Part shown: positions 26,131 through 29,451 of the stretch, piece by piece
Layout of the letters: each line of letters begins with the position of its first letter
Position numbering within the stretch: position 1 is the stretch's first letter
NCBI RefSeq assembly: GCF_000741205.1
Contig: NZ_JGYW01000005.1
Location: forward strand, 124,001 to 188,000
Source: Bifidobacterium gallicum DSM 20093 = LMG 11596
Lineage (GTDB): Bacteria; Actinomycetota; Actinomycetes; Actinomycetales; Bifidobacteriaceae
Direction: 5' to 3'
Length of the DNA: 64,000 nt
Made by a program: the position numbers and the translations under genes
Notes under the pieces: model-generated
Databases searched by the model: none
Told to the model about the DNA's origin: nothing
Seen by the model: only the letters and a program-made list of their open reading frames with translations

Positions 26131-26973
26131 ATGCGGTCGCACATGCTTGATGACGCAACGATGGTGGTAGTGGATTTGGACGGCACGTTGCTGCATGACG
26201 CACCCACGTTTGAAGAACGCGACCTTTCACCGTACAGCGAGCAGACAATCGAGGAATTGCATAAGCAACACATTCCCTTCGCAATCGCCACGGCACGGCC
26301 CGTGTCCACGGCGCTACCGTTTGTTGAACGACTCCAGCCAGACGCATGCGTGTATCTCAATGGCGCGTTGATCGATTTGGATCCCGCACATTCCACATTC
26401 GCGTCATTGAATCAGCCGGCACACGCGTTGCCGCCGACGACTAGGCTGATCGGGTTCCCCTCGCCGATGGCCGCGCAACTGTGCTTGCAGATGCTTGAAG
26501 TGTTTCCGGATTTGGAAATCGGCATTGTCATGGACGATGTGCGCTATACATCGTTTGACATTTCGAAATATTGGAAGACACAAACCTGGCAGTACACCGA
26601 TTTCACTGATGTGCCAGATGGCACAGTAGCCAAAATCATCGTATTCCCCAAGCCGGAACAATGGGATACAGTGTTGGCGATGGTACCCGCATCGATGGAT
26701 GTGCATGTGTCGGAAGGCACGTTGTTGATGATTACGCATCAGGATGCCAACAAGGAACACGCGTTGCGCGTGTTGGGGGAGCAGTGGCAGGTGCATACCG
26801 ACTACATGGTCACGTTTGGTGACGACATCATCGACATCAACATGATGCGTCAATCGGGACACGGGGTGGCTGTCGCCAACGCCGTCCCGCAAGTACTGGA
26901 TATCGCGGATGAGGTCTGCGAGTCCAACAATGATGATGGGGTAGCCAAGTGGCTACGCAACCATATGTCATGA
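26131..26973 (+). CDS. HAD-superfamily (Cof-type, IIB) phosphatase
   Basis: This 280-aa protein has motif I VVVDLDGTLLHD near residue 12, motif II ATARP, and motif IV GDDIIDINMMRQSGHGVAVANA near the C-terminus, separated by an alpha/beta cap; this is the YidA/Cof layout acting on sugar phosphates or cofactors. ATG 26131 was preferred because the AAGGAG at 26112 lies upstream, although spacing is long (13 nt); ATG 26143 is possible. It ends just before the AGTTCAAT box array. Confidence 0.85.
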   Translation: MRSHMLDDATMVVVDLDGTLLHDAPTFEERDLSPYSEQTIEELHKQHIPFAIATARPVSTALPFVERLQPDACVYLNGALIDLDPAHSTFASLNQPAHALPPTTRLIGFPSPMAAQLCLQMLEVFPDLEIGIVMDDVRYTSFDISKYWKTQTWQYTDFTDVPDGTVAKIIVFPKPEQWDTVLAMVPASMDVHVSEGTLLMITHQDANKEHALRVLGEQWQVHTDYMVTFGDDIIDINMMRQSGHGVAVANAVPQVLDIADEVCESNNDDGVAKWLRNHMS

Positions 26974-26983
26974 ACCACACTGC

Positions 26984-27217
26984 GTTCAATTACATATGGT
27001 TCAATTGCATGAAGTTTAATTGCATAGAGTTCAATGGAACGGCTTATGACTTGAACTATCTTTTGAACTATCTATAAGTCAAGTTCAATATAATTGAACT
27101 GAGTTAAGTTCAATCTCCAAGAATTGAACTAATCATATACTGATACATAGTTGTTTTGAACTGAACCTGTTGATACAGTATTGAACTGTTGGTGACAATC
27201 GTCATCATCAGTTCAAT
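26984..27217. promoter_or_regulatory. Array of 13 AGTTCAAT-type boxes upstream of the HTH-aminotransferase gene
   Basis: Boxes begin at 26984, 26999, 27014 and 27029 (four direct copies of GTTCAAT/GTTTAAT spaced exactly 15 nt), then in inverted sense at 27051 and 27063, as the perfect palindrome AGTTCAATATAATTGAACT at 27082-27100, as a second dyad 27107-27130 with an 8-nt spacer, and at 27156, 27180 and 27210. The whole non-coding gap to the next ORF is filled by them, in an A+T-rich context. A cooperative operator for the adjacent HTH protein is the likely reading. Confidence 0.75.
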
Positions 27218-27230
27218 GAAGGTGAAAAAC

Positions 27231-28853
27231 ATGGCCACATTCCAGGAACGGCTCATCATGGCAATGGATGCCAAACGGTTGCGCCAGATTGATATTGTCA
27301 ACGCCGCTCAGGCACAAGGCATGAAACTCGGCAAAAGCCATGTCAGCCAATATGTGAGCGGTAAAACCATACCGCGATCCGACATTATGTCGTTTCTGGC
27401 CTCAACACTCGGAGTGGACCAAGAATGGTTGAGCGGCCATGAACTCGAGTCCACAGCAATCACCGACACTGAACCCCAACAGTTCAATACAGAAGAGATT
27501 GAACTTAATGGCAATATGCAAGTTCAAAAAGAATCACGCCACCATGAGCCGAATCATATTGAACTTGTAGGGGAGCGGCCTGATGAATCAGTGCCCGTTC
27601 CTGCACCATCACCTCGGCATACGGGCAAGGAGACCACGATGCGTACGTTCAACAAATCCACCAAACTTGACAATGTGCTCTACGATGTGCGCGGTCCGGT
27701 GGTACAGGAAGCGGCACGCATGGAAGCCACAGGCACAAACGTGCTCAAGCTCAACATTGGCAATCCGGCACCGTTCGGATTCCGCACTCCTGACGAAGTT
27801 GTTTACGACATGGCCAGCCAATTGACCGAGTCGGAAGGGTATTCCGATTCCAAGGGCCTGTTTTCCGCACGCAAAGCCATCATGCAATACGCGCAGCTCA
27901 AGAACCTGCCGAACGTGACCATTGACAGCATCTATACAGGCAATGGCGTATCCGAACTGATCAACTTGAGTATGTCCGCATTGCTTGACACTGGCGATGA
28001 AGTGTTGCTGCCAAGCCCGGATTATCCGTTGTGGACGGCATGCGTCACGTTGGCCGGCGGCACACCCGTGCATTATGTCTGCGATGAGCAGTCGGACTGG
28101 TTCCCGGATATCGAAGACATGCGCAGCAAGATCACGGACAAGACCAAAGCCATTGTCATCATCAATCCGAACAATCCGACGGGCGCACTGTATCCCGTGG
28201 AAGTGCTGCAGCAAATCGTGGATTTGGCCCGCGAGCATCAGCTGATGATTTTCTCCGACGAGATTTATGACCGTCTCGTCATGGATGGGCTCCAGCACAC
28301 ATCCATCGCATCATTGGCTCCTGACTTGTTCTGCGTCACCTATTCCGGATTGTCCAAATCGCATATGATCGCCGGGTACCGTATTGGTTGGATGATTCTG
28401 AGCGGCAACACGCGCATCGGACGCGATTACATTGAGGGCTTGAACATGCTGACGAACATGCGTATTTGCTCGAATGTGCCCGCGCAGTCAATCGTGCAAA
28501 CCGCGTTGGGCGGCCATCAAAGCGTCAACGATTACCTGGTGCCTGGCGGACGCATCTACGAGCAGCGCGAATACATTTACGAAGCGTTGAATGCAATCCC
28601 AGGCATCACCGCCGTCAAACCGAAAGCCGCGTTCTACATCTTCCCGAAGATTGACACGAAACGCTTCCACATGACTGACGACGTGCAATTCGCTTTGGAC
28701 CTGTTGAAGGAAGAAAAAGTACTCGTGGTGCAGGGGACAGGCTTCAACTGGCACGAGCCCGATCATTTCCGCGTCGTATATTTGCCGCGCGTTGAAGTGC
28801 TACGCACCGCCGTTGACAAGATCGGACACTTCTTCTCAACCTATCGTCAATAA
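27231..28853 (+). CDS. HTH (XRE-like)-aminotransferase fusion protein
   Basis: The product has 540 aa. Residues 1-70 are an XRE-type helix-turn-helix (RLRQIDIVNAAQAQG...SHVSQYVSGKTIPRSDIMSFLASTLGV). Residues 71-136 form a polar linker. Residues 137-540 are a fold-type I PLP aminotransferase of the AlaA/AlaT (alanine-pyruvate) type: NPNNPTGALYP, SDEIYDRLVMDG, the Schiff-base Lys376 in YSGLSKSHMIAGYRIGW, and the C-terminal FRVVYLPR arginine. The start at ATG 27231 has GAAGGTGA upstream. A second start at 27639 would release the enzyme alone. PLP- or amino-acid-sensing autoregulation is inferred. Confidence 0.85.
   Translation: MATFQERLIMAMDAKRLRQIDIVNAAQAQGMKLGKSHVSQYVSGKTIPRSDIMSFLASTLGVDQEWLSGHELESTAITDTEPQQFNTEEIELNGNMQVQKESRHHEPNHIELVGERPDESVPVPAPSPRHTGKETTMRTFNKSTKLDNVLYDVRGPVVQEAARMEATGTNVLKLNIGNPAPFGFRTPDEVVYDMASQLTESEGYSDSKGLFSARKAIMQYAQLKNLPNVTIDSIYTGNGVSELINLSMSALLDTGDEVLLPSPDYPLWTACVTLAGGTPVHYVCDEQSDWFPDIEDMRSKITDKTKAIVIINPNNPTGALYPVEVLQQIVDLAREHQLMIFSDEIYDRLVMDGLQHTSIASLAPDLFCVTYSGLSKSHMIAGYRIGWMILSGNTRIGRDYIEGLNMLTNMRICSNVPAQSIVQTALGGHQSVNDYLVPGGRIYEQREYIYEALNAIPGITAVKPKAAFYIFPKIDTKRFHMTDDVQFALDLLKEEKVLVVQGTGFNWHEPDHFRVVYLPRVEVLRTAVDKIGHFFSTYRQ
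27481..27565. promoter_or_regulatory. Four AGTTCAAT boxes inside the linker-coding region
   Basis: AGTTCAAT at 27481, ATTGAACT at 27498 (dyad, 9-nt spacer), AGTTCAA at 27521 and ATTGAACT at 27558 repeat the upstream box inside the coding sequence between the HTH and enzyme domains. They encode the odd peptide pattern QFN/IEL/VQK/IEL. Their presence on both sides of the HTH-coding part suggests looping or control of an internal promoter. Confidence 0.6.
27625..27641 (+). promoter_or_regulatory. Internal Shine-Dalgarno and start codon for a free aminotransferase
   Basis: CAAGGAG sits 6 nt before the in-frame ATG at 27639 (codon 137 of the fusion), exactly where the aminotransferase domain begins (MRTFNKSTKLDN). 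Translation from here would give a 404-aa enzyme of normal AlaA/AlaT length. It is the best-matched SD of the locus. Confidence 0.65.
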
Positions 28854-28910
28854 CTATGACGCCATCGCGTAGGACATGCCACCGATGAGAGGATTGGACT
28901 AGGGAAGAAC

Positions 28911-28955
28911 ACTGGTTGCGTATCGATCACACGATGATGCGCAACCAGTTTTTTT
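28911..28955 (+). terminator. Intrinsic terminator after the aminotransferase gene
   Basis: ACTGGTTGCG and CGCAACCAGT form a 10-bp stem around an 19-nt loop with further inner pairing (ATCG/CGAT), followed directly by a run of seven T. Confidence 0.9.
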
Positions 28956-29451
28956 GTATGGCATCCCCGATACATGACATGAAAATATATCATCAAACTT
29001 CACCGCATAGTCGATATTGAATAAATATTTATTACTTTGAATAGGCGCATTCTGAATGTTTTTACTAGGTTCATTGCGTCGGGCATATCATTTATTATGC
29101 GCGGTTTAGACGCAGTGAACTCAAGAATTGACATGTCGAAAAATCAGAAATAATAATTGTTACTCAATACAACCAAATATCGTTACGGTACGGCCACGCC
29201 GAACCGGCACAGGACGCAGCATACCAGCAAACCAGTCCGATCAATCACAGCATTGCAATATAAGCGAGTGGGTAGCCGAACAGGTGTGAGGGAGAGGAAA
29301 AACGGGACCCACACTCATCCGACTCTATCAAATCTGACATAACGTACCTTATCGGATATTTATGGGCGGAAGGAAACACGAGTCTCCAAGCCATACCAAT
29401 GTCGGAATACCACGTAACATGTGCGGTCATACAGAACTCGTTCCAGCAAAA
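28956..29451. other. A+T-rich intergenic stretch without a credible gene
   Basis: About 500 bp between the terminator after the aminotransferase gene and the minus-strand terminator at 29452. It includes a 14-nt palindrome AATAAATATTTATT at 29020-29033. The short open frames here lack SD sequences and protein-like composition. I see no RNA gene. Confidence 0.4.

Follow-up and report, generated by a model that had tools for sequence, protein, structure and literature searches.

A transaminase fused to a phage-CI-type helix-turn-helix domain probably represses its own gene through an array of AGTTCAAT half-sites

We propose, at a probability of roughly 80%, that an enzyme carrying a phage-CI-type helix-turn-helix (HTH) domain represses its own gene through an array of AGTTCAAT half-sites, as read from the sequences of the 64,000-nucleotide stretch of DNA analysed here (the window) and of its relatives. 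In some relatives, the fusion probably turns down an amino-acid transporter gene as well as its own. A preliminary description of the locus had taken the boxes for an autoregulatory array, and this reading is supported by the conservation of the boxes as a set (96/96 fused loci of the window's family), by their concentration at the locus, and by their absence where the HTH is missing. The features of the locus are as follows (strand is omitted where a feature involves both).

26983..27035, + strand: four boxes in direct orientation at 15-nt intervals (26983, 26998, 27013, and 27028), the first three with one mismatch (CGTTCAAT, GGTTCAAT, AGTTTAAT)
27050..27069, - strand: two boxes, 12 nt apart, with one mismatch each
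27082..27100: two boxes forming a perfect 19-bp dyad, with the spacing of the TP901-1 OL operator as given in PMC4941734
27107..27130: another pair of convergent boxes (27107 +, 27123 -)
27151..27156, + strand: putative -35 element TTGTTT, a weak match, 17 bp ahead of the putative -10
27155..27162, - strand: box over the putative -35/spacer region
27174..27179, + strand: putative extended -10 element (TGA-TACAGT), directly adjoining a box
27180..27187, - strand: box that would cover the inferred transcription start
27210..27217, + strand: last upstream box, right before the Shine-Dalgarno-like AAGGTG
27231..28853, + strand: HTH-AlaA fusion gene, 540 amino acids, its probable ATG start assigned by homology and by the Shine-Dalgarno-like AAGGTG; the open frame begins at TTG 27189
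27231..27446, + strand: CI/XRE-type HTH, residues 1-72, with the segment GKSHVSQYV; a TP901-1 CI match and a weak HTH_3 match
27481..27565: four linker-coding boxes (27481 +, 27498 -, 27521 +, 27558 -)
27639..28850, + strand: aminotransferase domain of the AlaA type, conserved GLSK lysine included

The closest PDB HTH by sequence is the N-terminal domain of phage TP901-1 CI (E value of 1.4e-8, residues 6-72). HTH_3, the sole Pfam HTH match, scored 18.4 bits, under its cut-off of 23, and no GntR match was found in Pfam at E values up to 1. Residues 170-531 match Aminotran_1_2 (Pfam), and the C-terminal dimerisation and multimerisation domains of the TP901-1 type are thus not found in the fusion. 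The alignment of the enzyme half with AlaA (PDB 4cvq; E value of 4e-169) runs end to end, and the GLSK lysine of the enzyme half, which we take to be the PLP-binding lysine, is invariant across 43 aligned sequences. Among the best 25 of 94 NCBIfam families, the top match, PRK08363, scored 367 bits versus 534, below the curated alanine aminotransferase cut-off. The enzyme half is apparently a catalytically intact, AlaA-type glutamate-pyruvate transaminase. The linker between the two halves ranges from 17 to ~159 residues among relatives (with domain boundaries set by our analysis), and its length and variability suggest that it is probably flexible.

The gene is separated by 257 bp from its upstream neighbour, a HAD-type hydrolase gene (Pfam Hydrolase_3) whose stop is at 26973; the gap runs from there to the ATG at 27231. 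This gap holds 13 AGTTCAAT-like boxes with ≤1 mismatch, 7 of them exact, and the linker-coding segment 27481-27565 holds 4 more (3 exact), so that the preliminary description's counts of 13 and 4 are borne out at ≤1 mismatch. The perfect 19-nt dyad that it reported is also present. It had begun the array at 26984; the first box in fact starts one base earlier, at 26983, and the gap boxes extend to 27217. Its 15-nt direct spacing of the first four boxes stands, but these are not identical copies, since three of them have one mismatch. Start-to-start spacings across the gap are 15, 15, 15, 22, 12, 20, 11, 14, 16, 32, 25, and 30 nt.

In 5,000 dinucleotide shuffles of the gap, boxes with ≤1 mismatch averaged 0.68 (maximum of 5, versus 13 observed) and exact boxes averaged 0.03 (maximum of 2, versus 7 observed). 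For the linker (27465-27600), 0.007 exact boxes were expected and 3 were observed, a number that 0/5,000 shuffles reached; at ≤1 mismatch, 4 boxes were observed versus 0.19 expected, with 1/5,000 shuffles reaching 4. Elsewhere in the window, 257-bp stretches (taken in 20-bp steps, with starts >700 bp from 27000) had at most 2 boxes. The claim of an unusual density is therefore upheld by both comparisons. A genome-wide count, which the preliminary description had suggested, placed 6 of the 8 direct box pairs within ~30 bp, 4 of the 13 convergent pairs within ~30 bp, and 5/5 matches to a direct-triple pattern at the array locus; box pairs and triples are thus concentrated there in the window's own genome.

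Boxes follow the HTH among relatives. We analysed 96 fused loci in the window's family, the window's own included, and all 96 had at least 3 cores, with 3 to 12 cores per 300 nt upstream versus a shuffle expectation of 0.25. Each locus count was reached by <1% of 300 shuffles, and GTTCAA ranks first among hexamers upstream of these genes; the 96 loci are related sequences rather than 96 independent events, and relatedness inflates all counts. As the preliminary description had predicted, the boxes are conserved as a set in every fused orthologue while their number and spacing vary. In the genus, 83/112 genomes had a match to the protein at E values up to 1e-60 and 29 did not. One of the 83 (G077, locus L083) has a broken orthologue, in two matching pieces ~750 nt apart. 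The linker of another locus (L064) seems frame-shifted relative to that of the similar L033 and then returns to the enzyme frame, and three boxes at G018:C1:532664-532711 follow closely on the fused gene, before the next long frame.

The motif is not limited to Bifidobacterium: the same fusion and motif occur in Lachnospiraceae, in other Clostridia, and in other families of the window's phylum. A Clostridia-type set was assembled by searching named genomes with a fused protein from a faecal scaffold and taking the best 80 of 568 relatives, whose record titles name Blautia, Mediterraneibacter, Eisenbergiella, "Lachnospiraceae bacterium," and similar. Among these best 80, at least one core was found in 79/79 assessable loci and at least 3 in 70; L168, which was not assessable, was left out. 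Seventy-eight loci had 1 to 5 cores (at least 3 in 69), L153 with only 185 nt upstream, and L149 had 4 cores in 139 nt. In eight Clostridia-type genomes, the direct-triple pattern matched 7 times, 5 times at the fused gene and twice elsewhere in one genome, as placed by position and sequence. A Candidatus Eisenbergiella metagenome-assembled genome has two fused copies (L121 and L146), each with its own boxes. In the other families of the window's phylum, presumably Coriobacteriia, 20/20 fused homologues had 3 to 6 cores; these are 20 of 21 long-frame homologues, G507 having been left out. In one faecal fused homologue (L112), a single in-frame linker stop at 565-567 separates the HTH and enzyme frames.

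Unfused homologues provided controls. Twenty of the 51 remaining matches were taken, one per genome, and 19 were parsed; in all 18 that were correctly placed, no cores were found in 300 nt, a stretch that was counted from the enzyme domain and may include some coding sequence. The nineteenth, L234, has a mis-set start with one core inside the gene and was excluded. The controls are 51 to 59% identical to the window's protein and mostly GC-rich, and two with a GC content of 0.49 to 0.50 likewise had no cores. Two unfused genes come from the window's own family: L097 had 0 cores in 1,398 nt, and L098 had 1 core at -391, within a neighbouring frame. In a quick enzyme-domain tree of 174 rows, a fully supported branch separates the controls from the fused genes plus L097 and L098; the basal order of the fused side is not settled in this tree, and long branches were flagged. 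The preliminary description had named boxes at a like density without the gene as evidence against itself, and what we found upstream of unfused homologues was their absence.

The boxes occupy preferred positions relative to promoter-like elements in two of the three groups. In the window's family, a TAnnnT element is followed without a gap by a TTGAAC box 56 times versus 5.9 expected per offset, and a -10-like element lies within 0 to 2 nt of a box in 70/96 loci, while a box is placed as a -35 in only 13/96. In Clostridia-type loci, a box lies 16 to 18 bp ahead of a -10-like element in 73/78 cases, and 74 boxes lie exactly 17 bp ahead, where the average per gap is 9.3; the box would thus also serve as the -35. 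Because TTGAAC resembles a -35 hexamer, one box in each Clostridia-type locus could simply be part of the promoter. Among the 20 other-family loci, the -35 or -10-abutting rule held in only 1/20.

Direct TTGAAC pairs were phased near 10.5 bp, with an R of 0.52 for 314 Clostridia-type pairs and 0.33 for 379 pairs in the window's family; at 9 and 13 bp, R was 0.05 to 0.08. In the window's family, convergent (R of 0.14) and divergent (R of 0.27) pairs showed no clear phasing at 10.5 bp. The cooperative element of the preliminary description thus fits the direct pairs, whose phasing agrees with cooperative binding. Taken together, box positions and phasing favour side-by-side binding and promoter occlusion.

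The preliminary description had centred the array on one gene; in one group of relatives, a CycA-like permease gene carries the same array. In genome G044, a triple array (L235, 1664-1707) precedes an amino-acid permease gene; in NCBIfam, this permease best matches the D-serine/D-alanine/glycine transporter (319 bits, well short of the cut-off of 732), and orthologues of this permease were found in 107/112 genus genomes. We compared 70 permease loci (the 30 best, then 20 plus 20; L240-L309), counting cores no more than 450 nt from a conserved motif. In the 47 genomes with the fused gene, 21 permeases had 3 to 6 cores, 3 had one, and 23 had none; in genomes without it, 0/23 had cores, versus 5.5 expected. 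G044's own permease array lies further out and is not among the 21. All 21 boxed permeases fall within the top 29 by score among the relatives of one protein; these genomes may form one clade and hence reflect a single event. In 16/21 of them, a -10-like element lies immediately next to a box, just as it does at the fused gene.

No boxes were found at the CycA-like permease of the window's own genome. Other box pairs and dyads in that genome are scattered, and we set aside a regulon there beyond the fused gene; the strongest other dyad (L085, one mismatch) lies in a long coding frame and was likewise set aside. At least five other direct-triple arrays, those fetched (L235-L239), occur in genus genomes. 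That of L239 is within a coding frame and that of L238 within a short tandem repeat. In L236 (1694-1754), five direct boxes precede a frame that we take to encode orotate phosphoribosyltransferase, and in L237 (1553-1615), three direct boxes lie in the interval that separates a LacI-like regulator from a transporter-like gene.

The linker boxes appear to be under selection of their own. The 96 family linkers contain 104 cores, versus 19.8 from synonymous codon draws (the largest of 500 draws gave 32), and the cores occur in all five stop-free frame/strand readings, which points to selection on the DNA rather than on the peptide. This excess, and the location of many window boxes far upstream of the putative promoter, would suit a protein that activates its own gene or an array that mainly loops the promoter to the linker-coding segment. 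We nevertheless consider activation or looping unlikely, since boxes overlap the -10/+1 region or the -35, as suits occlusion, and linker boxes are sparse in most loci. At least 3 are present in only 13/96 family loci (fewer than 3 in 83/96), so they cannot be the core mechanism, and looping in that role, an idea that these boxes had prompted in the preliminary description, was set aside given how lineage-specific they are; the linker-box label needs three changes when mapped onto a tree with 94 family rows. The linkers of the Clostridia-type loci (best 80 of 568 relatives) have 6 cores in total, and the 20 other-family linkers have 4.

Two linker boxes share perfect inverted identity with upstream boxes, over 15 nt (27178-27192 and 27476-27490) and 14 nt (27104-27117 and 27495-27508), which exceeds that of shuffled flanks (top two, 0.001), so copies may be templated. 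Such copying is what an RNA-level element or a spreading repeat with no regulatory role might leave behind, an explanation to which we give hardly any weight: no Rfam match was found at gathering scores in 26900-29000, the boxes are found on both strands at variable spacing and at preferred places relative to promoter-like elements, and among the tested genomes a second gene carries them only where the fused gene exists. Slightly less improbable, though still very doubtful, is that another regulator binds the boxes and the fused HTH is incidental. Binding by the fused HTH is itself a prediction from sequence, and on one unverified faecal contig (L110), the 175 nt upstream of the fused gene contain no core. 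Against this, boxes track the HTH across two phyla and are missing where it is missing, the half-site agrees with the specificity reported for a related CI in PMC8516035, and the window's own genome encodes no second HTH of this type at E values up to 1. We therefore retain repression of the fused gene by its own product as the preferred reading.

Under autorepression, the fusion's HTH would bind AGTTCAAT half-sites. Transaminases of the AlaA fold usually form dimers; with such a fold and a probably flexible linker, one dimeric protein could engage a pair of half-sites whose spacing and orientation vary. Several proteins could bind side by side along one helix face, and with the array lying over the core promoter, accumulating enzyme would shut off its own transcription. 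In one group of relatives, the fusion would also sit on the promoter of the CycA-like permease and so would act there as an alanine-homeostasis repressor. Repression may be modulated by substrate or PLP. Going beyond this locus, the data could describe a class of enzyme-repressors in at least 2 phyla and many gut bacteria, in which a transaminase senses alanine or pyruvate status and directly governs alanine synthesis, as well as alanine/serine/glycine uptake in one lineage. In this class, half-sites would have spread into coding sequence, and the DNA sites of the protein would set part of its own linker peptide; we put this wider proposal at a little under even odds. Under the preferred reading, AGTTCAAT half-sites would be an operator code for an alanine-metabolism gene in bifidobacteria-like and Lachnospiraceae-type bacteria, and a protein linker would appear to be shaped by DNA-level selection for operator sites.

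No published account of an HTH-AlaA fusion or its sites was found, as judged by titles and the starts of abstracts in a search of mostly openly available papers. The nearest known system on the DNA-binding side is TP901-1 CI, which resembles the fusion in HTH sequence, in a KSxxSQYV segment, in the AGTTCA half-site, and in the 19-bp dyad spacing. As reported, its half-site consensus is AGTTCAYR (PMC8516035), its OL operator is 19 bp with AGTTCA and its complement 7 bp apart (PMC4941734), its linker comprises residues 81-89, and it partially auto-represses its promoter (PMC7250872). The window half-site ends in AT, whereas the reported CI consensus ends in YR; CI is described with three operators, whereas the window has many half-sites, mostly outside such a dyad, and the CI-type 19-bp spacing is rare in the window's family (3 convergent pairs). 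Where CI has C-terminal dimerisation and multimerisation domains, the fusion has a transaminase. A deposited CI variant, 3zhi, reads SAYVAS where 3zhm reads SQYVNS, which suggests to us that those who designed the variant regarded these residues as contacting DNA.

On the enzyme side, AlaA (PDB 4cvq, which presumably comes from Escherichia coli) matches the fusion's enzyme domain end to end, GLSK lysine included. Its 431-residue chain aligns from its residue 19-26 onward, however, and therefore has no room for a fusion-type HTH. BzdR is described as a regulator that arose in evolution when a DNA-binding domain was attached to an enzyme; in that case the enzyme turned into a regulator, whereas the catalytic residues of the fusion look intact, and the enzyme domain of BzdR is reportedly a different one. 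In overall design, the fusion parallels the MocR/GabR regulators, in which, according to PMC5320631, an HTH is joined to a C-terminal domain of aminotransferase fold, here represented by Aminotran_1_2. The MocR HTH is of the winged GntR family, whereas that of the fusion is CI/XRE type, and the enzyme half of the fusion resembles AlaA and retains its lysine. The protein would thus join a phage-repressor-type DNA reader to an apparently working enzyme, a MocR-like design made from different parts.
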